The notes under the pieces are model-generated. The model saw only the letters and a program-made list of their open reading frames with translations, was not told where the DNA came from and ran no database searches. A stretch of DNA of 64,000 bases from Stomorhina lunata (taxonomy: Eukaryota; Arthropoda; Insecta; Diptera; Rhiniidae): positions 86,514,319-86,578,318 of the forward strand of contig OW121743.1 of NCBI GenBank assembly GCA_933228675.1. The letters run 5' to 3'. Below, in pieces: positions 22,691 to 55,682 of this stretch. Position 1 is the first letter of the stretch. Each line of letters opens with the position of its first letter. Made by a program: the position numbers and the translations under genes.

Positions 22691-24410
22691 AAACACAAAA
22701 ACACCAAAAAGATAGGGGGTACGCCTGTCGCTCAAATGAAAGTGCGTTAGTCCCTCAACGAGAAGTACTATTTTCCATATCTTGAAAAAGCTGTGTATTG
22801 AAAATATTTGAAATCGGTATATAATACTTTTACTTATTTTCAAGAAATTTTCATTTGTATAATACTTTAAATTTTCTTATTTTCCTTAGAATCGGTTGGG
22901 ATCGATTTGGTGCTTTTTAATGTATAAATAATAAACAGTATAATAAATATTTAAAAAATGTGTAATCTATAAATATCAAAAAAAAAAACATTATTTATTT
23001 TACTTATGCATATAAAACACTTTAATTTTATAATATAATTTAACACTGCAGCAACAATTTATTCAAAATAAATATGTATTTTTTGGCAAAATATAAAGAC
23101 ACATTTGAATTTATGTCAAACAAGCGCCACGTGTTGTTACATGAAATAAAATATGAATAGAAAACAAATAGAAAAATGTTAATTTACATAAAGTTATATA
23201 TCAAATATTATGACAAGGTATTTTAGATTTTTTTTTATGCTTCTATTTAAAATTTATTTTATATGAAAATTTATTTATTTATTTGTATTGCAGTAAAATT
23301 TTGTTATTTACGGATGTATTGTATATAAGTGGTAATGTAAATGTGTATATTTATTGAAATGCATGTATAGTAATGTAATAAATATATAAACATATGTATT
23401 CTGTATGAGTATATGAATAAATAACAAAATTGTTCACTCTTGATTTAATTTAAAACAAAATTTCCGTTTGAAGTTATTTCTGGCAAATGATACACTTGGG
23501 ACAAGTTGAAACAAATTTCAATTGCAAAATACATACAAATTTACTATATTTAAAAAAATTGCAAAAATAAGTTCAAGTACTTATGCAAATATAAATATAC
23601 ATATTCGACTAAGTTTTTTTAAAGGTTCTTTATAATAAATACAAAAATTTTATTAAACAAAAAGCTCTTGTAACATTTTTTTATATAAAAATTTCAGAAC
23701 CGTAAATTTTGTCCTAAGTGTATGCATGTTTTTAAAAAAAAAACTTACATTAAGGCTTAAAAAATTCAAATTTGATATATTTTTTATATTTTTCTATGCA
23801 TTTGGGTAAAAACATTTTTATATAAACTTTTATACTTTTACAAACACACACAAATCCAATGCCAAGCAAATATTTTCATAATATTTTGCAAAAATATCAC
23901 AAGATATTATTTAAAATTTTCCCATAAATCCAATTAGCTTTAGTTTCAATCAAAACTTTTAATTTGTTCAGTTTCGAAACTGTGAAAAATTTTTACTCAT
24001 ATTTACTTTTACTTAAATAGAAGCTGTTTTGATTAGTTTCACATAAAACTTGAAAACATTAAAAAAAAATATATTGAAAAATAAAATCAGCAGCAAAAAC
24101 TTTTGCCATAAAATGGAAAATATTTGCCAAAGATGACGGGGGATAAAATGCGTAGCTACAGGCGTATTAAATACTCACGAAGGGCCAAATCTAAAAGCAA
24201 ATATTAAAAATAAAATTTGTAAATTAGTTTTCTAAAAACTTTATCAAAAAAAATTTTCCGCGATAAAACCAAGAGAAAATCAGCTTAGAAATGTTTAATG
24301 CAGTTATGCAATTTTCATGGAATTTTTTTAATAAATTGGAAAAATTTAAATAAATGAAATAAGCTCAATGTAACGAAAAGCCTAGAATGATATACTAATT
24401 TAATTACAGT
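22691..24410. other. spacer 2 of copy A, non-coding
   Basis: Non-repetitive AT-rich spacer, nearly identical to 44178-45895. It contains a conspicuous GC-richer island at 22711-22768. A 68-codon minus-strand frame crosses it (22637-22843), but it begins in satellite and its copy in B differs at several residues, so it is not called as a gene. Confidence 0.6.
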
Positions 24411-27400
24411 CATACTCATACTCTACTCATACTCTACTCAAACTTTCCTCATACTCTACTCATACTCTACACATACTCTACTCATACTCTACTCATACTC
24501 TACTCATACTCTACTCATACTCTACTCATACTCTACTCATACTCTACTCATACTCTACTCATACTCTACTCATACTCTACTCATACTCTACTCATACTCT
24601 ACTCATACTCTACTCATACTCTACTCATACTCTACTCATACTCTACTCATACTCTACTCATACTCTACTCATACTCTACTCATACTCTACTCATACTCTA
24701 CTCATACTCTACTCATACTCTACTCATACTCTACTCATACTCTACTCATACTCTACTCATACTCTACTCATACTCTACTCATACTCTACTCATACTCTAC
24801 TCATACTCTACTCATACTCTACTCATACTCTACTCATACTCTACTCATACTCTACTCATACTCTACTCATACTCTACTCATACTCTACTCATACTCTACT
24901 CATACTCTACTCATACTCTACTCATACTCTACTCATACTCTACTCATACTCTACTCATACTCTACTCATACTCTACTCATACTCTACTCATACTCTACTC
25001 ATACTCTACTCATACTCTACTCATACTCTACTCATACTCTACTCATACTCTACTCATACTCTACTCATACTCTACTCATACTCTACTCATACTCTACTCA
25101 TACTCTACTCATACTCTACTCATACTCTACTCATACTCTACTCATACTCTACTCATACTCTACTCATACTCTACTCATACTCTACTCATACTCTACTCAT
25201 ACTCTACTCATACTCTACTCATACTCTACTCATACTCTACTCATACTCTACTCATACTCTACTCATACTCTACTCATACTCTAATCATACTCTACTCATA
25301 CTCTACTCATACTCTACTCATACTCTACTCATACTCTACTCATACTCTACTCATACTCTACTCATACTCTACTCATACTCTACTCATACTCTACTCATAC
25401 TCTACTCATACTCTACTCATACTCTACTCATACTCTACTCATACTCTACTCATACTCTACTCATACTCTACTCATACTCTACTCATACTCTACTCATACT
25501 CTACTCATACTCTACTCATACTCTACTCATACTCTACTCATACTCTACTCATACTCTACTCATACTCTACTCATACTCTACTCATACTCTACTCATACTC
25601 TACTCATACTCTACTCATACTCTACTCATACTCTACTCATACTGTACTCATACTGTACTCATACTCTACTCATACTCTACTCATACTCTACTCATACTCT
25701 ACTCATACTCTACTCATACTCTACTCATACTCTACTCATACTCTACTCATACTCTACTCATACTCTACTCATACTCTACTCATACCCTACTCATACTCTA
25801 CTCATACTCTACTCATACTCTACTCATACTCTACTCATACTCTACTCATACTCTACTCATACTCTACTCATACTCTACTCATACTCTACTCATACTCTAC
25901 TCATACTCTACTCATACTCTACTCATACTCTACTCATACTCTACTCATACTCTACTCATGCTCTACTCATACTCTACTCATACTCTACTCATACTCTACT
26001 CATACTCTACTCATACTCTACTCATACTCTACTCATACTCTACTCATACTCTAATCATACTCTACTCATACTCTACTCATACTCTACTCATACTCTACTC
26101 ATACTCTACTCATACTCTACTCATACTCTACTCATACTCTACTCATACTCTACTCATACTCTACTCATACTCTACTCATACTCTATTCATACTCTGCTCA
26201 TACTCTACTCATACTTTACTCATACTCTACTCATACTCTACTCATACTCTACTCATACTCTACTCATACTCTACTCATACTCTACTCATACTCTACTCAT
26301 ACTCTACTCATACTCTACTTATACTCTACTCATACACTTCTCATACTCTACTCATACTCTACTCATACTCTACTCATACTCTACTCATACTCTACTCATA
26401 CTCTACTCATACTCTACTCATACTCTACTCATACTCTACTCATACTCTACTCATACTCTACTCATACTCTACTCATACTCTACTCATACTCTACTCATAC
26501 TCTACTCATACTCTACTCATACTCTACTCATACTCTACTCATACTCTACTCATACTCTACTCATACTCTACTCATACTCTACTCATACTCTACTCATACT
26601 CTACTCATACTCTACTCATACTCTACTCATACTCTACTTATACTCTACTCATACTCTACTCATACACTTCTCATACTCTACTCATACTCTACTCATACTC
26701 TACTCATACTCTACTCATACTCTACTCATACTCTACTCATACTCTACTCATACTCTACTCATACTCTACTCATACTCTACTCATACTCTACTCATACTCT
26801 ACTCATACTCTACTCATACTCTACTCATACTCTATTCATACTCTATTCATACTCTACTCATACTCTACTCATATTCTACTCATATTCTACTCATACTCTA
26901 CTCATACTCTACTCATACTCTACTCATACTCTACTCATACTCTACTTATACTCTACTCATACTCTACTCATACACTTCTTATACTCTACTCATACTCTAC
27001 TCATACTCTACTCATACTCTACTCATACTCTACTCATACTCTACTCATACTCTACTCATACTCTACTCATACTCTACTCATACTCTACTCATACTCTACT
27101 CATACTCTACTCATACTCTACTCATACTCTACTCATACTCTACTCATACTCTACTCATACTCTACTCATACTCTACTCATACTCTACTCATACTCTACTC
27201 ATACTCTACTCATACTCTACTCATACTCTACTCATACTCTACTCATACTCTACTCATACTCTACTCATACTCTACTCATACTCTACTCATACTCTACTCA
27301 TACTCTACTCATACTCTACTCATACTCTACTCATACTCTACTCATACTCTACTCATACTCTACTCATACTCTACTCATACTCTACTCATACTCTACTCAT

Positions 27401-30400
27401 ACTCTACTCATACTCTACTCATACTCTACTCATACTCTACTCATACTCTACTCATACTCTACTCATACTCTACTCATACTCTACTCATACTCTACTCATA
27501 CTCTACTCATACTCTACTCATACTCTACTCATACTCTACTCATACTCTACTCATACTCTACTCATACTCTACTCATACTCTACTCATACTCTACTCATAC
27601 TCTACTCATACTCTACTCATACTCTACTCATACTCTACTCATACTCTACTCATACTCTACTCATACTCTACTCATACTCTACTCATACTCTACTCATACT
27701 CTACTCATACTCTACTCATACTCTACTCATACTCTACTCATACTCTACTCATACTCTACTCATACTCTACTCATACTCTACTCATACTCTACTCATACTC
27801 TACTCATACTCTACTCATACTCTACTCATACTCTACTCATACTCTACTCATACTCTACTCATACTCTACTCATACTCTAATCATACTCTACTCATACTCT
27901 ACTCATACTCTACTCATACTCTACTCATACTCTACTCATACTCTACTCATACTCTACTCATACTCTACTCATACTCTACTCATACTCTACTCATACTCTA
28001 CTCATACTCTACTCATACTCTACTCATACTCTACTCATACTCTACTCATACTCTACTCATACTCTACTCATACTCTACTCATACTCTACTCATACTCTAC
28101 TCATACTCTACTCATACTCTACTCATACTCTACTCATACTCTACTCATACTCTACTCATACTCTACTCATACTCTACTCATACTCTACTCATACTCTACT
28201 CATACTCTACTCATACTCTACTCATACTCTACTCATACTCTACTCATACTCTACTCATACTGTACTCATACTGTACTCATACTCTACTCATACTCTACTC
28301 ATACTCTACTCATACTCTACTCATACTCTACTCATACTCTACTCATACTCTACTCATACTCTACTCATACTCTACTCATACTCTACTCATACTCTACTCA
28401 TACCCTACTCATACTCTACTCATACTCTACTCATACTCTACTCATACTCTACTCATACTCTACTCATACTCTACTCATACTCTACTCATACTCTACTCAT
28501 ACTCTACTCATACTCTACTCATACTCTACTCATACTCTACTCATACTCTACTCATACTCTACTCATGCTCTACTCATACTCTACTCATACTCTACTCATA
28601 CTCTACTCATACTCTACTCATACTCTACTCATACTCTACTCATACTCTACTCATACTCTAATCATACTCTACTCATACTCTACTCATACTCTACTCATAC
28701 TCTACTCATACTCTACTCATACTCTACTCATACTCTACTCATACTCTACTCATACTCTACTCATACTCTACTCATACTCTACTCATACTCTATTCATACT
28801 CTGCTCATACTCTACTCATACTTTACTCATACTCTACTCATACTCTACTCATACTCTACTCATACTCTACTCATACTCTACTCATACTCTACTCATACTC
28901 TACTCATACTCTACTCATACTCTACTTATACTCTACTCATACACTTCTCATACTCTACTCATACTCTACTCATACTCTACTCATACTCTACTCATACTCT
29001 ACTCATACTCTACTCATACTCTACTCATACTCTACTCATACTCTACTCATACTCTACTCATACTCTACTCATACTCTACTCATACTCTACTCATACTCTA
29101 CTCATACTCTACTCATACTCTACTCATACTCTACTCATACTCTACTCATACTCTACTCATACTCTACTCATACTCTACTCATACTCTACTCATACTCTAC
29201 TCATACTCTACTCATACTCTACTCATACTCTACTCATACTCTACTCATACTCTACTCATACTCTACTCATACTCTACTCATACTCTACTCATACTCTACT
29301 TATACTCTACTCATACTCTACTCATACACTTCTCATACTCTACTCATACTCTACTCATACTCTACTCATACTCTACTCATACTCTACTCATACTCTACTC
29401 ATACTCTACTCATACTCTACTCATACTCTACTCATACTCTACTCATACTCTACTCATACTCTACTCATACTCTACTCATACTCTACTCATACTCTACTCA
29501 TACTCTATTCATACTCTATTCATACTCTACTCATACTCTACTCATATTCTACTCATATTCTACTCATACTCTACTCATACTCTACTCATACTCTACTCAT
29601 ACTCTACTCATACTCTACTTATACTCTACTCATACTCTACTCATACACTTCTTATACTCTACTCATACTCTACTCATACTCTACTCATACTCTACTCATA
29701 CTCTACTCATACTCTACTCATACTCTACTCATACTCTACTCATACTCTACTCATACTCTACTCATACTCTACTCATACTCTACTCATACTCTACTCATAC
29801 TCTACTCATACTCTACTCATACTCTACTCATACTCTACTCATACTCTACTCATACTCTACTCATACTCTACTCATACTCTACTCATACTCTACTCATACT
29901 CTACTCATACTCTACTCATACTCTATTCATACTCTATTCATACTCTGCTCATACTCTACTCATACTCTACTCATACTCTACTCATACTCTACTCATACTC
30001 TACTCATACTCTACTCATACTCTACTCATACTCTACTCATACTCTACTCATACTCTACTCATACTCTACTCATACTCTACTCATACTCTACTCATACTCT
30101 ACTCATACTCTACTCATACTCTACTCATACTCTACTCATACTCTACTCATACTCTACTCATACTCTACTCATACTCTACTCATACTCTACTCATACTCTA
30201 CTCATACTCTACTCATACTCTACTCATACTCTACTCATACTCTACTCATACTCTACTCATACTCTACTCATACTCTACTTATACTCTACTCATACTCTAC
30301 TCATACACTTCTCATACTCTACTCATACTCTACTCATACTCTACTCATACTCTACTCATACTCTACTCATACTCTACTCATACTCTACTCATACTCTACT

Positions 30401-30749
30401 CATACTCTACTCATACTCTACTCATACTCTACTCATACTCTACTCATACTCTACTCATACTCTACTCATACTCTACTCATACTCTACTCATACTCTACTC
30501 ATACTCTACTCATACTCTACTCATACTCTACTCATACTCTACTCATACTCTACTCATACTCTACTCATACTCTACTCATACTCTTCTCATACTCTACTCA
30601 TACTCTACTCATACTCTACTCATACCCTACTCATACTCTACTCATACTCTACTCATACTCTACTCATACTCTACTCATACTCTACTCATACTCTACTCAT
30701 ACTCTACTCATACTCTACTCATACTCTACTCATATTCTACTCATACTCT
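24411..30749. repeat. 11-bp satellite (ACTCATACTCT)n, copy A
   Basis: About 575 copies of an 11-bp unit with composition A3 C4 T4 and almost no G on the plus strand. Variant units (AATCATAC, GTACTC, CCCTACTC, ATGCTC, TTATACTC, ACACTTCTC) form an ordered series at about 25283-27000 that recurs about 2.6 kb later, at 27880-29660. The array runs into the assembly gap. Because the unit lacks stops in all three plus frames, it yields open frames of 640 and 799 codons (25958-27880, 28565-30964) that merely repeat an 11-residue pattern; these are not genes. Confidence 0.97.
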
Positions 30750-30949
30750 NNNNNNNNNNNNNNNNNNNNNNNNNNNNNNNNNNNNNNNNNNNNNNNNNNN
30801 NNNNNNNNNNNNNNNNNNNNNNNNNNNNNNNNNNNNNNNNNNNNNNNNNNNNNNNNNNNNNNNNNNNNNNNNNNNNNNNNNNNNNNNNNNNNNNNNNNNN
30901 NNNNNNNNNNNNNNNNNNNNNNNNNNNNNNNNNNNNNNNNNNNNNNNNN
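30750..30949. other. assembly gap of exactly 200 N
   Basis: A run of 200 N separates the 11-bp array of copy A from the 31-bp satellite of copy B. A round number is typical of a scaffold gap of arbitrary size, so the true distance and even the adjacency are unknown. Confidence 0.98.
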
Positions 30950-31960
30950 AAAAATTTCCTATAAAAATTATATTTTTTAAAAATTTCCTATAAAAATTAA
31001 ATTTTTAAAAAATTTTCTATAAAATGTAAATTTTTGAAAAATTTCCTACAAACAGTAAATTTTTGAAAAATTTTCTATAAAAATAGGAATCTTTTTTTAA
31101 ATTCTTATAAAAATATAAAATTGTTGAAAAATTTCCTTTAAAAATAGGATTTTTTTTTTAAATTTTATATTAAAATAGAAAATTTTTGAAAAATTTCTTA
31201 TAGAAATATGAAATTTATGAAAAATTTCTTATAAAAATAGGAAATTTTTGAAAAATTTCCTATAAAAATAGGAATTTTTTTAAAAAATTTTATATATAAA
31301 TAGGAAATTCTTGAAAATTTTCTTATCAAAATATGAAATTTTTGAAAAATTTCTTATAAAAATAGGAAATTTTTGAAAAATTTCTTATAAAAATAGGAAA
31401 TTTTTGAAAAATTTCCTATAAAAATAAGAAATTTTTGAAAAATTTCCTATAAAAGTAAGAAATTTTTTAAAAATTTCCTATAAAAATTAGAAGTTTTTGA
31501 AAAATTTCCTATAAAAATAAGAAATTTTTGAAAACTTTTCTATAAAAATAGGAAATTTTTGAAAAGTTTCCTATAAAAATAAGAAATTTTTGAAAAATTT
31601 CCTATAAAAATAGAAAATTTTTGAAAAGTTTCCTATAAAAATAAGAAATTTTTGAAAAATTTTCTATAAAAAAATAGAAGTTTTTGAAAAAATTGCCATA
31701 AAAATAAGAAAATTTTGAAAAAATTCCTTTAAAAATTAGATATTTTTAAAAAATTTCCAATAAAATTAATTTAAAAATTTCCTTAAAAAATAAAAAAATT
31801 GTAAAATTTCCGGTAAAAATAAGAAAGTTTTGAAAAATTTCCTATTAAATTTAAAGTTGTTGAAAGTTTTCTATAAAAATAAGAGTTTGTTGAAAAAATT
31901 GTATAAATATTTGCAATATTTATACAATTATTTTGATAAATTTCCTATTAAAATATAAAA
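30950..31960. repeat. 31-bp quasi-palindromic satellite, start of copy B
   Basis: Aligns with about 12290-13315 of copy A, including the same odd units (AAACAGTAAA linker, the TTATAGAAATATGAAATTTATG unit and the ATTAATTTAAA decay at the end). Central-G orientation throughout. Confidence 0.93.
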
Positions 31961-32985
31961 TTTTTTGGATTTGATTTAAAATTGTTTTTTTAGAATCAAA
32001 AGTAATAAGAAACCTGATTTCTTGGAATTATAATAACATGAAAAGAAAGTTTTATAAAATATTCAATTTTCTTGATTTAAGAAATTTGTATTAATATTTT
32101 TTAGAAATTAGTGACGGCTCGTCACTTCTTAAAATTTGAAATAAACAACTAAGTTTTTGTTTAAATTTTAGGAAGACTTAGCTAGTCTTTTTTTTTAATT
32201 TAGTATTTGTTTTTTATATTAGAGAATTAGTTATTAAAAAAACAATATTGCTTTTATATTTCTGAAACAATAATTTAAGCGCTTTAAATTTGTTACTCAT
32301 GTATAATTTCTGTTCAAATGTTTACTCAAAAGAAAATTTAAATGAAAAAGAAAACTTTATCCGTAGCAACTTATCGTCATGTACAAAGAAAATAAAATTA
32401 TAAAGAACTTTGTATTGTCTCTATGCTATTGTCTGTTTCATGTAAAATTTTGCAGTTGGAAAAAACATTTTTCATTCAACTTTATTTATACTTTGTACCA
32501 CACGGCGTATGAATATTGATTCAGTTTCTTTTGCGTTTTATGTTAATCATACGCACGATATAGTCGTTTTTATAAATATTGATTCTTTGCTGCAATAGAC
32601 GTATAACTTATACATACATACATATATGAATGTATAATTTGAAAATAGGCGGGTCAGTAAGTTCATGACTTTTATAATTTCCAGCCTCTTAACCCTAGAG
32701 GGCTAACATATGAAACAACCGCGAAAAATTGTTGTTACTACAACCCCCAAAAAGGTATTAAGCGATAGTTATAAAAGTAAATTTTACAAATGTAAGCAAA
32801 AACATGAAGGGAAAAAAACTTTTTTAATTATATAGTAAAACTGCAACAAAAAAATGTGCGAAACTTTTAATTTAATTTTTGTGCATAAAAAAGTGCTAAT
32901 TATAAATAAAACTCTGTAATGCAAACAGACATTTTTCACATTCGCATGCGAAATGCGCTCTCCCATGAAATGCAATTATTTTTAT
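31961..32985. other. spacer 1 of copy B, left part
   Basis: Counterpart of 13357-14388. No gene. A 63-codon minus-strand frame (32784-32975) is identical to the one in copy A simply because the DNA is nearly identical; it is AT-driven and has no recognised domain. Confidence 0.6.
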
Positions 32986-32989
32986 TTAA

Positions 32990-33005
32990 CCCTTTCGGTG
33001 ATTCT
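32990..33005. repeat. piggyBac left terminal inverted repeat
   Basis: CCCTTTCGGTGATTCT; matches the complement of 35655-35670 at 14 of 16 positions. Confidence 0.9.
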
Positions 33006-33021
33006 ATGCCATATGGCATAG
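33004..33021. promoter_or_regulatory. 18-bp palindrome, copy 1 (left end)
   Basis: CTATGCCATATGGCATAG, a perfect dyad with CATATG at its centre, lies 14 bp inside the left end. Its position is that of the internal repeat next to the terminal repeat in classical piggyBac, so transposase binding is plausible. Confidence 0.75.
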
Positions 33022-33358
33022 CCACTTTTTGAAGCCCATTTTAGGTCATAATGCGTGTGGGTACACTTTTTTCTTAATTTTGTATTTTTCTTTGAAGTGT
33101 TATCTATAAATAAATTTAAAAAAAAAATTGATTGATGGACCCTACACATTGTTATGTTTCAGAGAGCAAGCGTTCCTCGTGAGATTCACAATTTGCAAAA
33201 AAAGAACATGTTATACTTTTATATATTTTTTTAAATAAAATTGTTAATTTGTTAGATTTTTTAATTAATTTAGTAGATAAACATTGCCCTAGTAATTTAG
33301 GAAAAAATTAGATCCGAAATATAGTTCAATAGAGCTGTCAGATTTTTTTTATTTCATA
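33022..33358. other. piggyBac 5' non-coding region
   Basis: AT-rich leader between the left-end palindrome and the promoter-proximal palindrome. It probably contains the transposase promoter. No clear TATA or initiator could be singled out in this composition. Confidence 0.5.
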
Positions 33359-33376
33359 CTATGCCATATGGCATAG
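33359..33376. promoter_or_regulatory. 18-bp palindrome, copy 2 (upstream of transposase)
   Basis: Identical CTATGCCATATGGCATAG, ending 63 bp before the start codon, in the promoter or 5' leader. If transposase binds the end copies, this copy could let it control its own expression; that role is inference. Confidence 0.7.
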
Positions 33377-33439
33377 ATTTTTCCCAAAGGAAATTTTTTA
33401 CTTTGTTGTATAAGTTCGTAGTGACTAGACGTGTTGACA

Positions 33440-35245
33440 ATGCCTAATAAACTAAACACCGAAGAAATTGAAAATATTTTAATTAATTTTGATAACTCAG
33501 ATATATCTGATTTTGATGATGAGGAAGAAGAAGAAAATAGTGTTTTGGAGTCACTATTGCAAACTTTAAATGATAGAAATAACAATGACTTCTTGATCGA
33601 AGAGTTAACTAATCCGGATGGGAATATTGATAAGTTTGAGAAAAATTTGGATGTAGGAGTTGATTTGATGGATTTGGAAGATGCCTCGGATCCACCATTC
33701 CAAAAAGTTATTTCATATAGATGGGCAAAGACGGAATGGAATACTCCAATCTCAGGATTTTCAGAAAGTTATCCAAAGCAAGATGTAAAAACTCCTGTTT
33801 CATATTTTCTAAAGTATTTTCCATATGATTTTATTGACACTATTGTTGAGGCAACAAATCAAGTCTCACTTATGAAGAGTGGAACCGCTGTTAATGTTGA
33901 AAAAGGAGAGATTCTGACATTAATGGGATTGGAAATCATTATTGGAACAATCGGATATCCTCGATTACAAATGTACTGGGCTGGTGCTACTGAAATACCA
34001 GCCTTTCGTAAACACATGACAAAAAAACGGTTTCATATAATACGTACTTCTCTAAAGTTTTGCATAGAGGGGAACTCAACCGACAAACTTTTTAAAGTTC
34101 GTCCACTTATAAATACATTCCTGAAAAAATCTTATGATATTCCAAAAGATGAAAACTGCTGCTGTGATGAAATGATGATTCCATGCAAATCGAAAACTGG
34201 ATTGAAGCAGTATATGCCTAAAAAACCTATTAAATGGGGAATAAAAATATTTTGCCTGTGTAGCTCAAATGGAATTCTTTATGATCTGGAAATATACCAG
34301 GGAAAAAACACAATTGTTGGAGACTCAAACTTAGGTTTTTGTTCGGATATTTTTATTCATTTATGTAAAACTATTCCGGAAAATAAAAACCACAAGATAT
34401 TTTTTGATAACTATTTTACCACTGTAAACTTATTAATATATTTGCGAACAAAGGGAATATGGGCAACAGGCACCATACGAGGAAACAGAATTGGAAAAGC
34501 TCCCCTAAAACAAGAAAAGGATTTAAAAAAGTTAGGAAGAGGTAGCTATGACTATTGCATTGAAAGGAATCAAAACATTTTCGTTTTGAAATGGCTAGAT
34601 GGGGGCTGTGTTCAATTGGCTTCGTCCATTTATGGTGATAAAGACACAAAAGAGGTCACCAGATTTTCTTCTGAGCAAAAGAAAAAGATCGTTGTATCAC
34701 AGCCTAACGTTATCGCTGTGTATAATAAATGTATGGGAGGAGTCGACAAGATGGACTTTTTGCTATCTTTGTATCGAATTTCTATTCGGACAAAAAAGTG
34801 GACCCTTAGAGTTTTCGACCATTTTCTGGACTTAGCAGTATGCAACTCTTGGTTAGAATATCGCAATGATTGCGAAAGTAATAACATAAGAAAAAAAGAT
34901 CAAATGGATTTATTAGCGTTCCGGAATGATGTAGCTGATGGATTGCTGGCATTGGCGACAGTTCAAAGTGTCGCACGAAAAAGAGGAAGACCCAAGCAAT
35001 CGGAGGACTTAGACCTTTCTAGCACTCCATCAACTTCGAAATCAAGACCTTCATATGAAAGGGCACCTTCAGTTTCGATTCGTTTCGATGGTATTCAACA
35101 TTGGCCTGAGTATACACCTGTAAAACGTATATGTAAAGTACCAGGATGCAAAGGATATTCCAGATACTTGTGTGCAAAATGTAACGTTCATCTCTGCATT
35201 CCAAACGGGACCAGAAATTGCTTTAGATTGTACCATGAAAAGTGA
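33440..35245 (+). CDS. piggyBac-family transposase, intact
   Basis: A 601-residue DDE/D transposase that would excise and insert the surrounding element at TTAA sites in the nucleus. The first ATG is at 33440; an upstream in-frame GTG is not a credible fly start. Order: an acidic N-terminus (Asp/Glu run near residues 27-33), then the DDE_Tnp_1_7 core from about residue 100 to 500. Expected catalytic acids are all present: D243 (CDEMM), D323 (FFDNYFT), D436 and D439 (GGVDKMD). A basic KRGRPK stretch near 515 may be a nuclear signal or AT-hook-like contact. The C-terminal cysteine-rich domain has C565, C570, C578, C581, C586, C594 and H599. Length is normal for the family (T. ni piggyBac has 594). 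No stops or frameshifts. Family is certain; the subfamily is not named. Confidence 0.97.
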   Translation: MPNKLNTEEIENILINFDNSDISDFDDEEEEENSVLESLLQTLNDRNNNDFLIEELTNPDGNIDKFEKNLDVGVDLMDLEDASDPPFQKVISYRWAKTEWNTPISGFSESYPKQDVKTPVSYFLKYFPYDFIDTIVEATNQVSLMKSGTAVNVEKGEILTLMGLEIIIGTIGYPRLQMYWAGATEIPAFRKHMTKKRFHIIRTSLKFCIEGNSTDKLFKVRPLINTFLKKSYDIPKDENCCCDEMMIPCKSKTGLKQYMPKKPIKWGIKIFCLCSSNGILYDLEIYQGKNTIVGDSNLGFCSDIFIHLCKTIPENKNHKIFFDNYFTTVNLLIYLRTKGIWATGTIRGNRIGKAPLKQEKDLKKLGRGSYDYCIERNQNIFVLKWLDGGCVQLASSIYGDKDTKEVTRFSSEQKKKIVVSQPNVIAVYNKCMGGVDKMDFLLSLYRISIRTKKWTLRVFDHFLDLAVCNSWLEYRNDCESNNIRKKDQMDLLAFRNDVADGLLALATVQSVARKRGRPKQSEDLDLSSTPSTSKSRPSYERAPSVSIRFDGIQHWPEYTPVKRICKVPGCKGYSRYLCAKCNVHLCIPNGTRNCFRLYHEK

Positions 35246-35246
35246 G

Positions 35247-35306
35247 GTAAGTTATAGATTTATTTCTATATTTGAATTTGTTTTATATTATTTATTTTTT
35301 TTTCAG
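35247..35306 (+). other. likely 60-bp intron in the 3' UTR of the transposase
   Basis: A consensus donor GTAAGT begins one base after the stop codon, and a T-rich tract ending in CAG closes at 35306. The 60-base length is usual for fly introns. Because it lies after the stop it does not change the protein. Being right at the stop, it should not trigger nonsense-mediated decay. Confidence 0.6.
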
Positions 35307-35520
35307 AGAACTATACAGATGCAGACATACTCTTGAACCAGAAATTGACAATGAATTCCTATTTTTTATAGTTTTAGTTACAATGAACTCTTATTTTTTA
35401 TAGTTTTTTGCGTTTGCTTATGTTAAAGTTTAAAAAAAATAATTTAAATCCAATAAAAACCACAATTTTAGAACTGAATTAAAAACTTATATATTTTATT
35501 TTTTTTCCTTTAAATAGATT
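35307..35520 (+). other. transposase 3' UTR with poly(A) signal
   Basis: A 32-bp unit (CAATGAA..., TATTTTTTATAG) is repeated twice at about 35349-35408. AATAAA at 35452-35457, about 210 bp after the stop, is the best poly(A) signal. Confidence 0.6.
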
Positions 35521-35538
35521 CTATGCCATATGGCATAG
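35521..35538. promoter_or_regulatory. 18-bp palindrome, copy 3 (right end)
   Basis: Third identical CTATGCCATATGGCATAG, 132 bp inside the right end. It shares GATT on its 5' side with copy 1. Confidence 0.75.
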
Positions 35539-35654
35539 TGTCCAAAAACCACTTTTGCAAACAAAATGTTAAAAAATTAGTTTTGATTATTCATAAAGAG
35601 GGCTTAAGTATATAAAAAAACTAAAAAATAGATTTTTAAAACCAAAAACAAAAA

Positions 35655-35670
35655 AGAAGCCCCGAAAGGG
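35655..35670. repeat. piggyBac right terminal inverted repeat
   Basis: AGAAGCCCCGAAAGGG, the complement of the left repeat apart from two positions, directly followed by TTAA. Confidence 0.9.
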
Positions 35671-35674
35671 TTAA

Positions 35675-36187
35675 ACAAGTATTTACGCAAATGAGTATAA
35701 ATATTTAATTCATACAATTTGCTGAAGTTTTTTGCTTATTTTTTTATTTATTTTAGTTTAATTTTCATTTATTTACTTTATATAATTCATTGTTGTAAAT
35801 CACAAAGATTGAAAAAGTTTATAAAATATTGATTACAATGAATTGTTGACGAAAATTGTTTAAATATAATGGCAAAAAAAAAGAATATTTACAAGGTTGC
35901 GGGTAAATAGTCAACAGCGTATAGTCATTCCGTTTTCTCATTATTATTATATATTTATTTAATATGTATTTATTACATATAATATAAACGTTAATTAAAT
36001 ATTTTTATGAAATACTGATTCTGTGGTATTTACCATGCTCGTTAAAACATTAAATCTTTTTAATATTTTCCTTTTTTTATTTTGGGAAAATTTATTTTAA
36101 TGATGGCCAAGAAGCTCAATTTAATGCGTATTCATGTTGCTAAATATTTTGTTAATTTATTTGGATCGTTTTTATGTATTTTAGATT
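35675..36187. other. spacer 1 of copy B, right part
   Basis: Counterpart of 14393-14924. It lacks 15 bases that copy A has after 'tatagtcat' (35922-35930). No gene. Confidence 0.6.
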
Positions 36188-37946
36188 AAGAAAAGAAAAA
36201 TATTTTTATCAAAAATTTTAATATAGAAAATATTTTTATAGAAAATTTTTCCTAAGAAAAATATTCTTATAGACAATTGTTCAATAGAAAAATATTTTAA
36301 TAGAAAATTTTGGAATAGCAAAATATTTTTATGAAAAATTTTTCTGTAGAAAATCATTTTTACCGAAAACTTTTCTATAGTAAAATATTTTTATAGAAAT
36401 TTTTTTTGTTAAATATTTTTATGGGCATTTTTTCCAAAGAAAGATATTTTTATAGAAAAATGTTTTGATCGATTTTGTTCTATAGAAATATATCTTATCA
36501 AACATTTTTGTATAGCAAAATATTTTAACCAAAAATTTGTCTATAGAAAAATATTTTTTTATGGAAAATTTTTCTATAGAAAAATATTTTTATCGAAAAT
36601 TTTTCTATAGAAAAATTTTTTGTCGAAATTTTTTTTGCAGAAAAATATTTTAACAAAATTTTTTTCTTAATAAAAAAACATTTATTTTTCTATAGAAAAA
36701 TATTTCTAGAGAAAATTTTTTGTAGAAAAATATTTTTATCAAAAATTTTTCTATAGAAAAATATTTTTATCAAAAATTTTTCTATAGAAAAATATTTTAA
36801 TCGAAAATTTTTCGACAGAAAAATATTTTTATCGAAAAGTTTTCTATAGCAAAATATTTTAATCAAAAATTTTTCTATAGAAAAATATTTTGGTCAAAAA
36901 TTTTTCAATAGGAAAATATATTTATCGAAAACTTATCTGTACAAAAATATTTCTATCAAACATTTTTCTGTAGTAAAATGTTTTTATCAAAATTTTAATG
37001 TAGTAAAATATTTTTATCGAAAACTATTCTTTAATAATGTATTTTTTTTTAATTTTTCTATAGAAAAATACTTTTATCGAAAAATTTTCTATGGAAAAAT
37101 ACTTTTGTCGAAAATTTTTCTTTAGAAAAATATTTTTATCGAAAAATTTTCTATAGAAAAATATTTTTATCGAAAACTTTTCGGTAGAAAAATATTTTTA
37201 TTTTACATTTTTCTATATAAAGATATTTCTATCGAAAATTTTTCTATAGAAAAATATTTCTATCGAAAAATTTTTTATAGAAAAATATTTTTATCGAAAA
37301 ATTGTCTATAGAAAAATATTTTTTTATCGATTTGGTTCTATAGAAAAATACATTTATATTTCTATCGAAAATTTTTCTATAGAAAAATATTTCTATCGAA
37401 AATTTTTCTATAGAAAAATATTTCTATCGAAAATTTTTCTATAGAAAAATATTTCTATCGAAAATTTTTCTGTAGAAAAATATTTCTATCGAAAATTTTT
37501 CTATAGAAAAATATTTCTATCGAAAATTTTTCTATAGAAAAATATTTCTATCGAAAATTTTTCTATAGAAAAATATTTCTATCGAAAATTTTTCTATAGA
37601 AAAATATTTCTATCGAAAATTTTTCTATAGAAAAATATTTCTATCGAAAATTTTTCTATAGAAAAATATTTCTATCGCAAATTTTTCTATAGAAAAATAT
37701 TTCTATAGAAAAATATTTCTATCGAAAATTTTTCTATAGAAAAATATTTCTATCGAAAATTTTTCTATAGAAAACTATTTCTATCCAAAATTTTTCTATA
37801 GAAAAATATTTCTATCGAAAATTTTTCTATAGAAAAATATTTCTATTGAAAATTTTTCTATAGAAAAATATTTCTATCGAAAATTTTTCTATAGAAAAAT
37901 ATTTCTATCGAAAATTTTTCTATAGAAAAATATTTCTATCGAAAAC
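36188..37946 (-). repeat. CTATAG-type 31-bp satellite, inverted left part (copy B)
   Basis: A decayed margin to about 37360 aligns with copy A. It is followed by about 19 homogeneous monomers in the inverted orientation (TTTCTATCGAAAA with TTTTTCTATAGAAAAA). Copy A lacks this homogeneous inverted stretch. Confidence 0.92.
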
Positions 37947-40900
37947 ATTCTATAGAAAAATTTTCGACAGAAATATTTTTCTATAGAAAAATTTTCGACA
38001 GAAATATTTTTCTATAGAAAAATTTTCGATATTTTTCTATAGAAAAATTTTCGACAGAAATATTTTTCTATAGAAAAATTTTCGACAGAAATATTTTTCT
38101 ATAGAAAAATTTTCGACAGAAATATTTTTCTATAGAAAAATTTTCGACAGAAATATTTTTCTATAGAAAAATTTTCGACAGAAATATTTTTCTATAGAAA
38201 AATTTTCGACAGAAATATTTTTCTATAGAAAAATTTTCGACAGAAATATTTTTCTATAGAAAAATTTTCGACAGAAATATTTTTCTATAGAAAAATTTTC
38301 GACAGAAATATTTTTCTATAGAAAAATTTTCGACAGAAATATTTTTCTATAGAAAAATTTTCGACAGAAATATTTTTCTATAGAAAAATTTTCGACAGAA
38401 ATATTTTTCTATAGAAAAATTTTCGACAGAAATATTTTTCTATAGAAAAATTTTCGACAGAAATATTTTTCTATAGAAAAATTTTCGACAGAAATATTTT
38501 TCTATAGAAAAATTTTCGACAGAAATATTTTTCTATAGAAAAATTTTCGACAGAAATATTTTTCTATAGAAAAATTTTCGACAGAAATATTTTTCTATAG
38601 AAAAATTTTCGACAGAAATATTTTTCTATAGAAAAATTTTCGACAGAAATATTTTTCTATAGAAAAATTTTCGACAGAAATATTTTTCTATAGAAAAATT
38701 TTCGACAGAAATATTTTTCTATAGAAAAATTTTCGACAGAAATATTTTTCTATAGAAAAATTTTCGACAGAAATATTTTTCTATAGAAAAATTTTCGACA
38801 GAAATATTTTTCTATAGAAAAATTTTCGACAGAAATATTTTTCTATAGAAAAATTTTCGACAGAAATATTTTTCTATAGAAAAATTTTCGACAGAAATAT
38901 TTTTCTATAGAAAAATTTTCGACAGAAATATTTTTCTATAGAAAAATTTTCGACAGAAATATTTTTCTATAGAAAAATTTTCGACAGAAATATTTTTCTA
39001 TAGAAAAATTTTCGACAGAAATATTTTTCTATAGATAAATTTTCGACATAAATATTTTTCTATAGAAAAATTTTCGACAGAAATATTTTTCTATAGAAAA
39101 ATTTTCGACAGAAATATTTTTTATAGAAAAATTTTCGACAGAAATATTTTTCTATAGAAAAATTTTCGACAGAAATACTTTTCTATAGAAAAATTTTCGA
39201 CAGAAATATTTTTCTATAGAAAAATTTTCGACAGAAATATTTTTCTATAGAAAAATTTTCGACAGAAATATTTTTCTATAGAAAAATTTTCGACAGAAAT
39301 ATTTTTCTATAGAAAAATTTTCGACAGAAATATTTTTCTATAGAAAAATTTTCGACAGAAATATTTTTCTATAGAAAAATTTTCGACAGAAATATTTTTC
39401 TATAGAAAAATTTTCGACAGAAATATTTTTCTATAGAAAAATTTTCGACAGAAATATTTTTCTATAGAAAAATTTTCGACAGAAATATTTTTCTATAGAA
39501 AAATTTTCGACAGAAATATTTTTCTATAGAAAAATTTTCGACAGAAATATTTTTCTATAGAAAAATTTTCGACAGAAATATTTTTCTATAGAAAAATTTT
39601 CGACAGAAATATTTTTCTATAGAAAAATTTTCGACAGAAATATTTTTCTATAGAAAAATTTTCGACAGAAATATTTTTCTATAGAAAAATTTTCGACAGA
39701 AATATTTTTCTATAGAAAAATTTTCGACAGAAATATTTTTCTATAGAAAAATTTTCGACAGAAATATTTTTCTATAGAAAAATTTTCGACAGAAATATTT
39801 TTCTATAGAAAAATTTTCGACAGAAATATTTTTCTATAGAAAAATTTTCGACAGAAATATTTTTCTATAGAAAAATTTTCGACAGAAATATTTTTCTATA
39901 GAAAAATTTTCGACAGAAATATTTTTCTATAGAAAAATTTTCGACAGAAATATTTTTCTATAGAAAAATTTTCGACAGAAATATTTTTCTATAGAAAAAT
40001 TTTCGACAGAAATATTTTTCTATAGAAAAATTTTCGACAGAAATATTTTTCTATAGAAAAATTTTCGACAGAAATATTTTTCTATAGAAAAATTTTCGAC
40101 AGAAATATTTTTCTATAGAAAAATTTTCGACAGAAATATTTTTCTATAGAAAAATTTTCGACAGAAATATTTTTCTATAGAAAAATTTTCGACAGAAATA
40201 TTTTTCTATAGAAAAATTTTCGACAGAAATATTTTTCTATAGAAAAATTTTCGACAGAAATATTTTTTATAGAAAAATTTTCGACAGAAATATTTTTCTA
40301 TAGAAAAATTTTCGACAGAAATATTTTTCTATAGAAAAATTTTCGACAGAAATATTTTTCTATAGAAAAATTTTCGACAGAAATATTTTTCTATAGAAAA
40401 ATTTTCGACAGAAATATTTTTCTATAGAAAAATTTTCGACAGAAATATTTTTCTATAGAAAAATTTTCGACAGAAATATTTTTCTATAGAAAAATTTTCG
40501 ACAGAAATATTTTTCTATAGAAAAATTTTCGACAGAAATATTTTTCTATAGAAAAATTTTCGACAGAAATATTTTTCTATAGAAAAATTTTCGACAGAAA
40601 TATTTTTCTATAGAAAAATTTTCGACAGAAATATTTTTCTATAGAAAAATTTTCGACAGAAATATTTTTCTATAGAAAAATTTTCGACAGAAATATTTTT
40701 CTATAGAAAAATTTTCGACAGAAATATTTTTCTATAGAAAAATTTTCGACAGAAATATTTTTCTATAGAAAAATTTTCGACAGAAATATTTTTCTATAGA
40801 AAAATTTTCGACAGAAATATTTTTCTATAGAAAAATTTTCGACAGAAATATTTTTCTATAGAAAAATTTTCGACAGAAATATTTTTCTATAGAAAAATTT

Positions 40901-43900
40901 TCGACAGAAATATTTTTCTATAGAAAAATTTTCGACAGAAATATTTTTCTATAGAAAAATTTTCGACAGAAATATTTTTCTATAGAAAAATTTTCGACAG
41001 AAATATTTTTCTATAGAAAAATTTTCGACAGAAATATTTTTCTATAGAAAAATTTTCGACAGAAATATTTTTCTATAGAAAAATTTTCGACAGAAATATT
41101 TTTCTATAGAAAAATTTTCGACAGAAATATTTTTCTATAGAAAAATTTTCGACAGAAATATTTTTCTATAGAAAAATTTTCGACAGAAATATTTTTCTAT
41201 AGAAAAATTTTCGACAGAAATATTTTTCTATAGAAAAATTTTCGACAGAAATATTTTTCTATAGAAAAATTTTCGACAGAAATATTTTTCTATAGAAAAA
41301 TTTTCGACAGAAATATTTTTCTATACAAAAATTTTCGACAGAAATATTTTTCTATACAAAAATTTTCGACAGAAATATTTTTCTATAGAAAAATTTTCGA
41401 CAGAAATATTTTTCTATAGAAAAATTTTCGACAGAAATATTTTTCTATAGAAAAATTTTCGACAGAAATATTTTTCTATAGAAAAATTTTCGACAGAAAT
41501 ATTTTTCTATAGAAAAATTTTCGACAGAAATATTTTTCTATAGAAAAATTTTCGACAGAAATATTTTTCTATAGAAAAATTTTCGACAGAAATATTTTTC
41601 TATAGAAAAATTTTCGACAGAAATATTTTTCTATAGAAAAATTTTCGACAGAAATATTTTTCTATAGAAAAATTTTCGACAGAAATATTTTTCTATAGAA
41701 AAATTTTCGACAGAAATATTTTTCTATAGAAAAATTTTCGACAGAAATATTTTTCTATAGAAAAATTTTCGACAGAAATATTTTTCTATAGAAAAATTTT
41801 CGACAGAAATATTTTTCTATAGAAAAATTTTCGACAGAAATATTTTTCTATAGAAAAATTTTCGACAGAAATATTTTTCTATAGAAAAATTTTCGACAGA
41901 AATATTTTTCTATAGAAAAATTTTCGACAGAAATATTTTTCTATAGAAAAATTTTCGACAGAAATATTTTTCTATAGAAAAATTTTCGACAGAAATATTT
42001 TTCTATAGAAAAATTTTCGACAGAAATATTTTTCTATAGAAAAATTTTCGACAGAAATATTTTTCTATAGAAAAATTTTCGACAGAAATATTTTTCTATA
42101 GAAAAATTTTCGACAGAAATATTTTTCTATAGAAAAATTTTCGACAGAAATATTTTTCTATAGAAAAATTTTCGACAGAAATATTTTTCTATAGAAAAAT
42201 TTTCGACAGAAATATTTTTCTATAGAAAAATTTTCGACAGAAATATTTTTCTATAGAAAAATTTTCGACAGAAATATTTTTCTATAGAAAAATTTTCGAC
42301 AGAAATATTTTTCTATACAAAAATTTTCGACAGAAATATTTTTCTATACAAAAATTTTCGACAGAAATATTTTTCTATACAAAAATTTTCGACAGAAATA
42401 TTTTTCTATACAAAAATTTTCGACAGAAATATTTTTCTATACAAAAATTTTCGACAGAAATATTTTTCTATACAAAAATTTTCGACAGAAATATTTTTCT
42501 ATACAAAAATTTTCGACAGAAATATTTTTCTATACAAAAATTTTCGACAGAAATATTTTTCTATACAAAAATTTTCGACAGAAATATTTTTCAATACAAA
42601 AATTTTCGACAGAAATATTTTTCTATACAAAAATTTTCGACAGAAATATTTTTCTATACAAAAATTTTCGACAGAAATATTTTTCTATACAAAAATTTTC
42701 GACAGAAATATTTTTCTATACAAAAATTTTCGACAGAAATATTTTTCTATACAAAAATTTTCGACAGAAATATTTTTCTATACAAAAATTTTCGACAGAA
42801 ATATTTTTCTATACAAAAATTTTCGACAGAAATATTTTTCTATAGAAAAATTTTCGACAGAAATATTTTTCTATAGAAAAATTTTCGACAGAAATATTTT
42901 TCTATAGAAAAATTTTCGACAGAAATATTTTTCTATAGAAAAATTTTCGACAGAAATATTTTTCTATAGAAAAATTTTCGACAGAAATATTTTTCTATAG
43001 AAAAATTTTCGACAGAAATATTTTTCTATAGAAAAATTTTCGACAGAAATATTTTTCTATAGAAAAATTTTCGACAGAAATATTTTTCTATAGAAAAATT
43101 TTCGACAGAAATATTTTTCTATAGAAAAATTTTCGACAGAAATATTTTTCTATAGAAAAATTTTCGACAGAAATATTTTTCTATAGAAAAATTTTCGACA
43201 GAAATATTTTTCTATAGAAAAATTTTCGACAGAAATATTTTTCTATAGAAAAATTTTCGACAGAAATATTTTTCTATAGAAAAATTTTCGACAGAAATAT
43301 TTTTCTATAGAAAAATTTTCGACAGAAATATTTTTCTATAGAAAAATTTTCGACAGAAATATTTTTCTATAGAAAAATTTTCGACAGAAATATTTTTCTA
43401 TAGAAAAATTTTCGACAGAAATATTTTTCTATAGAAAAATTTTCGACAGAAATATTTTTCTATAGAAAAATTTTCGACAGAAATATTTTTCTATAGAAAA
43501 ATTTTCGACAGAAATATTTTTCTATAGAAAAATTTTCGACAGAAATATTTTTCTATAGAAAAATTTTCGACAGAAATATTTTTCTATAGAAAAATTTTCG
43601 ACAGAAATATTTTTCTATAGAAAAATTTTCGACAGAAATATTTTTCTATAGAAAAATTTTCGACATTCGACAGAAATATTTTTCTATAGAAAAATTTTCG
43701 ACAGAAATATTTTTCTATAGAAAAATTTTCGATAGAAATATTTTTCTATAGAAAAATTTTCGATAGAAATATTTTTCTATAGAAAAATTTTCGATAGAAA
43801 TATTTTTCTATAGAAAAATTTTCGATAGAAATATTTTTCTATAGAAAAATTTTCGATAGAAATATTTTTCTATAGAAAAATTTTCGATAGAAATATTTTT

Positions 43901-44177
43901 CTATAGAAAAATTTTCGATAGAAATATTTTTCTATAGAAAAATTTTCGATAGAAATATTTTTCTATAGAAAAATTTTCGATAGAAATATTTTTCTATCTA
44001 AAACTTTTCTTTAGAAAAGTATTTTTTTTTAATTTTTCTATAGAAAAATGCTTTTGTCAAAAATTATTTTATAGAAAAATATTTTTATCGAACATTTTCT
44101 ATAGAAACTATAGAAAAATAATTTTATCGACCATTTTTTAATAGAACAATATTTTTATTGAAATTTTTTTTTATTGA
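37947..44177 (+). repeat. CTATAG-type 31-bp satellite, core (copy B)
   Basis: About 195 monomers, mainly the GACAG subfamily, with GATAG only at the right edge (about 43725-43990). A block of about 17 monomers with CTATAC instead of CTATAG lies at about 42315-42840, plus two isolated ones near 41325-41360; copy A has none. A partial unit (GACATTCGACAG) occurs near 43664. The last ~180 bases are the decayed margin shared with copy A. Confidence 0.95.
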
Positions 44178-45895
44178 AAACACAAAAACACCAAAAAGAT
44201 AGGGGGTACGCCTGTCGCTCAAATGAAAGTGCGTTAGTCCCTCAACGAGAAGTACTATTTTCCATATCTTGACAAAGCTGTGTATTGAAAATATTTGAAA
44301 TCGGTATATAATACTTTTACTTATTTTCAAGAAATTTTCATTTGTATAATACTTTAAATTTTCTTATTTTCCTTAGAATCGGTTGGGATCGATTTGGTGC
44401 TTTTTAATGTATAAATAATAAACAGTATAATAAATGTTTAAAAAATGTGTTATCTATAAATATCAAAAAAAAAACATTTTTTATTTTACTTATGCATATA
44501 AAACACTTTAATTTTATAATATAATTTAACACTGCAGCAACAATTTATTCAAAATAAATATGTATTTTTTGGCAAAATATAAAGACACATTTGAATTTAT
44601 GTCAAACAAGCGCCACGTGTTGTTACATGAAATAAAATATGAATAGAAAACAAATAGAAAAATGTTAATTTACATAAAGTTATATATCAAATATTATGAC
44701 AAGGTATTTTAGATTTTTTTTATGCTTCTATTTAAAATTTATTTTATATGAAAATTTATTTATTTATTTGTATTGCAGTAAAATTTTGTTATTTACGGAT
44801 GTATTGTATATAAGTGGTAATGTAAATGTGTATATTTATTGAAATGCATGTATAGTAATGTAATAAATATATAAACATATGTATTCTGTATGAGTATATG
44901 AATAAATAACAAAATTGTTCACTCTTGATTTAATTTAAAACAAAATTTCCGTTTGAAGTTATTTCTGGCAAATGATACACTTGGGACAAGTTGAAACAAA
45001 TTTCAATTACAAAATACATACAAATTTACTATATTTAAAAAAATTGCAAAAATAAGTTCAAGTACTTATGCAAATATAAATATACATATTCGACTAAGTT
45101 CTTTTTAAATTTTCTTTATAATAAATACAAAAATTTTATTAAACAAAAAGCTCTTGTAACATTTTTTTATATAAAAATTTCAGAACCGTAAATTTTGTCC
45201 TAAGTGTATGCATGTTTTAAAAAAAAACTTACATTAAGGCTTAAAAAATTCAAACTTGATATATTTTTATATTTTTCTATGCATTTGGGTAAAAACATTT
45301 TTATATAAACTTTCATACTTTTACAAACACACACAAATCCAATGCCAAGCAAATATTTTCATAATATTTTGCAAAAACATCGCAAGATATTATTTAAAAT
45401 TTTCCCATAAATCCAATTAGCTTTAGTTTCAATCAAAACTTTTAATTTGTTCAGTTTCGAAACTGTGAAAAATTTTTACTCATATTTACTTTTACTTAAA
45501 TAGAAGCTGTTTTGATTAGTTTCACATAAAACTTGAAAACATTAAAAAAAATATATATTGAAAAATAAAATCAGCAGCAAAAACTTTTGCCATAAAATGG
45601 AAAATATTTGCCAAAGATGACGGGGGATAAAATGCGTAGCTACAGGCGTATTAAATACTCACGAAGGGCCAAATCTAAAAGCAAATATTTAAAAATAAAA
45701 TTTGTAAATTAGTTTTCTAAAAACTTTATCAAAAAAAATTTTCCGCGATAAAACCAAGAGAAAATCAGCTTAGAAATGTTTAATGCAGTTATGCAATTTT
45801 CATGGAATTTTTTTAATAAATTGGAAAAATTTAAATAAATGAAATAAGCTCAATGTAACGAAAAGCCTAGAATGATATACTAATTTAATTACAGT
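44178..45895. other. spacer 2 of copy B, non-coding
   Basis: Near-identical to 22691-24410, including the GC-richer island (44198-44255). No gene. Confidence 0.6.
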
Positions 45896-48800
45896 CATAC
45901 TCATACTCTACTCATACTCTACTCAAACTCTCCTCATACTCTACTCATACTCTACTCATACTCCACTCATACTCTACTCATACTCTACTCATACTCTACT
46001 CATACTCTACTCATACTCTACTTATACTCTACTCATACTCTACTCATACTCTTCTCATACTCTACTCATACTCTACTCATTCTCTATTCATACTCTACTC
46101 ATACTCTACTCATACTCTACTCATACTCTACTCATACTCTACTCATACTCTACTCATACTCTACTCATACTCTACTCATACTCTACTCATACTCTACTCA
46201 TACTCTACTCATACTCTACTCATACTCTACTCATACTCTACTCATACTCTACTCATACTCTACTCATACTCTACTCATACTCTACTCATACTCTACTCAT
46301 ACTCTACTCATACTCTACTCATACTCTACTCATACTCTTCTCATTCTCTACTCATTCTCTACTCATACTCTACTCATACTCTACTCATACTCTACTCATA
46401 CTCTACTCATACTCTACTCATACTCTACTCATACTCTACTCATACTCTACTCATACTCTACTCATACTCTACTCATACTCTACTCATACTCTACTCATAC
46501 TCTACTCATACTCTACTCATACTCTACTCATACTCTACTCATACTCTACTCATACTCTACTCATACTCTACTCATACTCTACTCATACTCTACTCATACT
46601 CTACTCATACTCTACTCATACTCTACTCATACTCTACTCATACTCTACTCATACTCTACTCATACTCTACTCATACTCTACTCATACTCTACTCATACTC
46701 TACTCATACTCTACTCATACTCTACTCATACTCTACTCATACTCTACTCATACTCTACTCATACTCTACTCATACTCTACTCATACTCTACTCATACTCT
46801 ACTCATACTCTACTCATACTCTACTCATACTCTACTCATACTCTACTCATACTCTACTCATACTCTACTCATACTCTACTCATACTCTACTCATACTCTA
46901 CTCATACTCTACTCATACTCTACTCATACTCTACTCATACTCTACTCATACTCTACTCATACTCTACTCATACTCTACTCATACTCTACTCATACTCTAC
47001 TCATACTCTACTCATACTCTACTCATACTCTACTCATACTCTACTCATACTCTACTCATACTCTACTCATACTCTACTCATACTCTACTCATACTCTACT
47101 CATACTCTACTCATACTCTACTCATACTCTACTCATACTCTACTCATACTCTACTCATACTCTACTCATACTCTACTCATACTCTACTCATACTCTACTC
47201 ATACTCTATTCATACTCTACTCATACTCTACTCATACTCTACTCATACTCTACTCATACTCTACTCATACTCTACTCATACTCTACTCATACACTACTCA
47301 TACTCTACTCATACTCTACTCATACTCTACTCATACTCTACTCATACTCTACTCATACTCTACTCATACTCTACTCATACTCTACTCATACTCTACTCAT
47401 ACTCTACTCATACTCTACTCATACTCTACTCATACTCTACTCATACTCTACTCATACTCTACTCATACTCTACTCATACTCTACTCATACTCTACTCATA
47501 CTCTAATCATACTCTACTCATACTCTACTCATACTCTACTCATACTCTACTCATACTCTACTTATACTCTACTCATACTCTACTCATACTCTACTCATAC
47601 TCTACTCATACTCTACTCATACTCTACTCATACTCTACTCATACTCTACTCATACTCTACTCATACTCTACTCATACTCTACTCATACTCTACTCATACT
47701 CTACTCATACTCTACTCATACTCTACTCATACTCTACTCATACTCTACTCATACTCTATTTATACTCTACTCATACTCTACTCATAGTCTACTCATACTC
47801 TACTCATACTCTACTCATACTCTACTCATACTCTACTCATACACTACTCATACTCTACTCATACTCTACTCATACTCTACTCATACTCTACTCATACTCT
47901 ACTCATACTCTACTCATACTCTACTCATACTCTACTCATACTCTACTCATACTCTACTCATACTCTACTCATACTCTACTCATACTCTACTCATACTCTA
48001 CTCATACTCTACTCATACTCTACTCATACTCTACTCATACTCTACTCATACTCTACTCATACTCTACTCATACTCTACTCATACTCTACTCATACTCTAC
48101 TCATACTCTACTCATACTCTACTCATACTCTACTCATACTCTACTCATACTCTACTCATACTCTACTCATACTCTACTCATACTCTACTCATACTCTACT
48201 CATACTCTACTCATACTCTACTCATACTCTACTCATACTCTACTCATACTCTACTCATACTCTACTCATACTCTACTCATACTCTACTCATACTCTACTC
48301 ATACTCTACTCATACTCTACTCATACTCTACTCATACTCTACTCATACTCTACTCATACTCTACTCATACTCTACTCATACTCTACTCATACTCTACTCA
48401 TACTCTACTCATACTCTACTCATACTCTACTCATACTCTACTCATACTCTACTCATACTCTACTCATACTCTACTCATACTCTACTCATACTCTACTCAT
48501 ACTCTACTCATACTCTACTCATACTCTACTCATACTCTACTCATACTCTACTCATACTCTACTCATACTCTACTCATACTCTACTCATACTCTACTCATA
48601 CTCTACTCATACTCTACTCATACTCTACTCATACTCTACTCATACTCTACTCATACTCTACTCATACTCTACTCATACTCTACTCATACTCTACTCATAC
48701 TCTACTCATACTCTACTCATACTCTACTCATACTCTACTCATACTCTACTCATACTCTACTCATACTCTACTCATACTCTACTCATACTCTACTCATACT

Positions 48801-55600: not shown

Positions 55601-55682
55601 TGCAGTTCTTTAGACAGGAGTCTAGGTATTAACCCTTCGTCAAAATGACTACGAAAAATTTTATTTTCAAATTAAAACAAAA

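Follow-up and report, generated by a model that had tools for sequence, protein, structure and literature searches.

A probably complete piggyBac-superfamily transposon with three identical palindromes, very probably heterozygous at its locus, in Stomorhina lunata

The window analysed here is a stretch of 64,000 nucleotides from the dipteran Stomorhina lunata (contig OW121743.1 of assembly GCA_933228675.1, positions 86,514,319 to 86,578,318 of the forward strand; all coordinates below are those of the window). It carries a single copy of a probably complete piggyBac-superfamily transposon, and it also holds a second version of the surrounding sequence in which the element is missing. Our reading is that the transposon is very probably heterozygous at this locus and that the two haplotypes stayed unmerged in the assembly. 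The element and its filled/empty pair are the ordinary trace of a mobile element. They are ordinary in kind, and it is the layout of three identical palindromes inside the element that provides a worthwhile lead.

The element is 2,681 bp long (32990 to 35670, plus strand) and has a TTAA on each side, at 32986 to 32989 and at 35671 to 35674, so that 32986 to 35674 reads as TTAA, 2,681 bp and TTAA. Its tips are inverted repeats (left 32990 to 33005 on the plus strand, right 35655 to 35670 on the minus strand) that agree without mismatch over the first 9 bp and at 14 of 16 bp overall. The 9-mer CCCTTTCGG forms both tips and occurs nowhere else in the window, and with it the element shows the short terminal repeats of the piggyBac superfamily, which commonly begin with CCCT. 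Among beetle piggyBac elements the reported starts include CCCT and CCCTTT, with CCCT being the most prevalent (available text of PMC12732532). The TTAA target duplication typical of the superfamily is seen in the two TTAA copies flanking the element and in the lone TTAA at the empty site, and both duplicates are exact, as the initial annotation had claimed. That annotation had also described the piggyBac as intact, a description that stands since both ends are present and the frame of 601 amino acids runs without stop codon or frameshift. The element is thus probably an apparently complete cut-and-paste DNA transposon of this superfamily, as judged from its sequence. Intact piggyBac elements are not rare. 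In a beetle survey elements were reported from 62 of 136 species with 534 intact copies, while the total number of copies is given as 645 in the text and as 654 in a table (PMC12732532, in the part available).

The single open gene of the element (33440 to 35245, plus strand) has 601 codons and would encode a transposase of the DDE_Tnp_1_7 type. The Pfam profile PF13843 is matched over its entire length (1 to 349 of 349) with an E-value of 2e-71 and 241.6 bits, the cut-off being 22.4. Directly 3' of the stop codon lies a stretch of 60 nt (35247 to 35306, plus strand) that starts with GTAAGT and ends with TTTTCAG, which we take to be consensus-like splice sites of a possible intron. AATAAA occurs seven times in the element, and only the copy at 35452 to 35457 (plus strand) lies 3' of the stop codon; this copy may be a polyadenylation signal. 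For the analysis of conserved residues the transposase was aligned with ten relatives, picked from the longer ones among 120 listed. The aspartates D243, D323 and D436 are kept in all 11 aligned proteins and D439 in 10 of them, and these residues align with the catalytic aspartates of piggyBat and piggyBac. Seven Cys/His positions mark the tail (residues 565 to 599); six are kept in all 11 proteins, C594 in 10 of them. One relative, P0018, is the sole exception for both D439 and C594, and the transposase of the element itself has all four aspartates and all seven Cys/His residues. The alignment agrees with the initial annotation that the catalytic aspartates are intact. The cysteine-rich tail, which that annotation also called intact, may form a zinc-binding domain: its Cys/His positions are conserved, but the Pfam profile zf-Tnp_2 reaches 20.2 bits here, below its cut-off of 24, and the structural model is uncertain in this region. 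A C-terminal Cys-rich zinc-binding domain is described as lacking in PGBD1 and PGBD5 in the available part of PMC11707139.

The search for relatives of the transposase returned 138 proteins, of which 120 were listed. Among the matches listed, the best-scoring one is a protein without name (P0002) with 57% identity over the full length, and P0005 shares 61% identity over 68% of the length. The best-scoring listed matches that carry a name come from ticks; they are annotated as piggyBac transposable element-derived protein 3 or 3-like and share 36 to 38% identity, within a range of 35 to 38% for the tick proteins overall. As other named relatives further down bear PGBD2- or PGBD4-like names, the naming does not decide for a PGBD3 lineage. 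Among solved structures, sequence comparison retrieved the piggyBat transposase (9c0f, E 2.8e-28) and the T. ni piggyBac transposase (6x67, E 2.1e-12); a third match with an E-value of 0.9 was taken as chance. A structure model calculated from the 11-sequence alignment has intermediate confidence (mean pLDDT 71.7, pTM 0.68) and a poorly predicted tail. Its top structural matches are again 6x67 (E 4.5e-24, TM-score 0.56) and 9c0f (E 6.5e-22, TM-score 0.55), with the TM-scores normalized by query length. The superposition with 6x67 is loose (rmsd 14.1), with 19% identity in the structural alignment. Of eight structural matches at E <= 0.001, three are chains of the 6x67 and 9c0f proteins and five are Tn5 transposase. 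In viral contigs no relative of the transposase was confirmed among 30 pattern matches of a single-protein query or among 188 of an alignment query, and none was confirmed among 223 pattern matches of the alignment query in bacterial and archaeal genome contigs.

Comparison of the window with itself revealed that the surroundings of the element are present twice in the same orientation. The copy without the element extends from 12296 to 30749 (plus strand), is aligned to the other copy until 28417 and consists of further 11-bp satellite array in the remainder. The filled copy extends from 30950 to 49902 (plus strand). Three long matches connect the two, namely 12296-14392 to 30950-32989 (89.7% identity), 14389-22694 to 35671-44004 (95.7%) and 14946-28417 to 36446-49902 (96.1%). 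These identities take in satellite arrays, and the second and third match overlap within a 31-bp satellite array where their registers differ. In the unique segments the copies are 99.3 to 99.6% identical, with 8 mismatches in 1091 aligned bases, 2 in 522 and 13 in 1787, adding up to 23 in 3,400, and 15 indel events of which the largest measures 81 bp. The left flank was aligned twice and gave 8 mismatches over 13244 to 14392 and 10 over the shorter 13600 to 14392, due to different gap placement; the total of 23 uses the longer alignment, and the shorter one leads to 25 over fewer bases. The largest interruption between the two copies is the element itself. At the corresponding position the empty copy holds a single TTAA (14389 to 14392) with the same flanking sequence on both sides as the filled copy, exactly the uninterrupted site that the initial annotation had pointed out. 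TTAA is a common motif here, found 19, 15 and 26 times in three segments of unique sequence from the empty copy, but a chance pairing of TTAA sites was rejected on the basis of the long matching flanks.

The two copies are separated by an assembly gap of 200 N (30750 to 30949), the only run of N in the window, and the sequences flanking it were treated as separate contigs. According to the available text of PMC9516828, an assembly gap between copies is a mark of false haplotypic (heterotype) duplication, further marks being half read depth and heterozygous k-mers. The first of these marks, the gap between the copies, is present here. Base 30950, the first one past the gap, already belongs to the duplicated stretch and matches 12296. 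To the left of the gap, the match stops at 28417, where the 11-bp array of the filled copy ends, whereas in the empty copy an array of the same kind runs on to 30749, the last base before the gap. Because the duplicated stretch lies on both flanks of the gap and extends right up to it, alleles are favoured, and it is highly likely that the filled and the empty copy are alleles of one locus. Two parental haplotypes would have been left unmerged by the assembly and put in tandem across the gap. The initial annotation had spoken of a paralogous or allelic locus. Its filled/empty pair is confirmed, while the gap, which it did not mention, refines this choice towards alleles. Counted against alleles is the identity of only 89.7 to 96.1% in the satellite-bearing matches. 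A genuine tandem (segmental) duplication, spanning no less than about 16 to 18 kb and followed by insertion of the element into one daughter copy or by its seamless excision from the other, would give an identical picture if the junction lay inside the gap. The two copies are indeed neighbours with the same orientation, and satellite-rich surroundings might favour unequal exchange. However, there is a gap between the copies that the shared stretch touches from both sides, and no copy-to-copy junction is seen in the assembled sequence, so that we regard such a duplication as improbable. A filled/empty pair within one assembly can thus represent unmerged alleles, and a check for a gap should precede the calling of a paralogue.

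The window is rich in other repeats, and its satellite landscape is AT-rich. The 11-bp satellite (TACTCATACTC) forms arrays at 24413 to 30749 and at 45898 to 49902, the left one being longer. Rare 33-mers are found once in the right array, and some of them twice in the left array at a distance of 2,607 bp, which suggests an internal duplication in the left array together with a difference in array length between the copies. Arrays of a 31-bp satellite, one per copy, lie at 15209 to 22620 and 36194 to 43997 and are nearly equal in length, the former having about 239 units and the latter about 251. Another 31-bp satellite family (AAAAATTTCCTATAAAAATAGGAAATTTTTG-like) occurs in both orientations at 2964 to 5003, 6662 to 7510, 10629 to 13243, 30950 to 31897 and 61342 to 63558. 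Furthermore, the window contains two inverted copies of 488 nt (1 to 488 and 55680 to 56167; 99% complementary), perhaps of a dispersed repeat, and a tandem repeat at 53652 to 54676 in which a unit of about 125 bp is repeated 8.2 times with 86% matches.

If the two copies are alleles, as we prefer, the age of the event is a separate question. The initial annotation had called the insertion very recent. This goes beyond the data, as the pair dates the event only to after the divergence of two copies that differ at 23 of 3,400 positions. Insertion or seamless excision postdates the split of the two sequences, and given these differences in the unique flanks a very recent date is not required. 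Between two haplotypes of an outbred insect, 0.7% divergence is nothing unusual. The open gene and the matching ends argue against a great age of the element. The transposase, which the initial annotation called possibly active, may still be able to move it. One variant of the allelic explanation is that the insertion is old and now inactive and persists as a standing polymorphism, with the gene still open by chance. The differences in unique sequence leave room for an old event, and the finding of a single element copy in 64 kb fits it as well. In contrast, 601 codons free of stops and frameshifts, matching ends and four retained aspartates speak against such an old insertion, which we consider possible, but with distinctly less than even prospects.

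In a further variant the empty allele is a revertant, from which an element that was there first has been excised without footprint. In the piggyBac mechanism the element is nicked, a hairpin forms on TTAA and is opened again, the element joins a new TTAA, and the donor site is repaired seamlessly (PMC7351741, as far as available). Because excision allows this seamless repair at TTAA, the filled/empty pair fits either direction of the event. The flanks, however, give no sign in either direction, and insertion would be the simpler default. A revertant appears rather unlikely to us.

Within the element, the sequence CTATGCCATATGGCATAG is a perfect 18-bp palindrome and is present in three exact copies, without any other exact match in the window. 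The first copy (33004 to 33021) covers bp 15-32 counted from the left tip. The second (33359 to 33376) ends 63 bp upstream of the ATG. The third (35521 to 35538) starts 275 bp downstream of the stop codon of the transposase and ends 132 bp short of the right tip. When the element was shuffled 1000 times by dinucleotides, a perfect 18-bp palindrome arose in 27 cases and an 18-mer present three times in none. A single palindrome would be little remarkable on these numbers, but for the triplet an origin from base composition alone was rejected. In the titles and abstract openings covered, we met no literature report of a three-palindrome layout in an arthropod piggyBac, which is weak evidence of absence.

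The layout resembles that of human PGBD3 in spacing, though the sequence of the palindrome differs. In PGBD3 an imperfect 16-bp palindrome, GTTCCAtTAtTGGAAC, adjoins the 5' repeat, recurs 59 bp upstream of the ORF and is found again 114 bp short of the 3' repeat (available part of PMC3459987). Both elements thus have one palindrome at three places and TTAA targets, a likeness that concerns the DNA layout. The 59 bp between palindrome and ORF correspond to 63 bp here, and the 114 bp to the 3' repeat correspond to 132 bp to the right tip, or to about 119 bp if a 13-bp repeat is assumed. Apart from the palindromes themselves (16 bp and imperfect in PGBD3, 18 bp and perfect here), the elements differ in the third copy, which lies 75 bp past the stop codon in PGBD3 and 275 bp past it here. 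In human PGBD3 one catalytic aspartate is changed to asparagine, and the CSB-PGBD3 protein binds near the three palindromes, for which the authors suggest a possible autoregulation (PMC3459987, in the text available).

The T. ni piggyBac (PDB 6x67 and 6x68) shares the transposase fold, the catalytic residues, the TTAA target and a palindrome adjoining the left inverted repeat. There, a Cys-rich dimer binds the palindrome at bp 17-33 (PMC7351741, available part), compared with bp 15-32 for the first palindrome described here. Its sequence, however, is distant (E 2.1e-12; 19% identity in the structural alignment), and according to the available text of PMC3459987 its palindromic repeat is found at two places, 3 and 31 bp inside the end repeats, compared to three here. 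The solved relative most similar in sequence is the piggyBat element of Myotis lucifugus (PDB 9c0f; E 2.8e-28), but it has its own imperfect palindrome three times on the left end, without a right-end counterpart in the part of PMC11707139 available.

Following the known mechanism, the transposase would bind the 18-bp palindromes as a dimer via its Cys-rich tail. It would pair the element ends, cut with formation of a hairpin on TTAA and join the element at a new TTAA. Binding to the palindrome before the ATG may in addition regulate transcription of the transposase gene itself. We tentatively speculate further that the element is currently active and belongs to a family not yet named, that the PGBD3-like palindrome spacing reflects an old scheme of control conserved in its piggyBac lineage, that the palindrome in front of the gene serves a self-shutdown of the transposase, and that palindrome and protein tail change together; this combined proposal is more likely to fail than to hold.

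With its intact piggyBac structure and its empty counterpart, the element is a candidate for use as a natural transposon in genetic tools, and the filled/empty pair provides an exact site for genotyping. Through the layout shared with human PGBD3, autoregulation by the transposase becomes testable in an element that may still be mobile.
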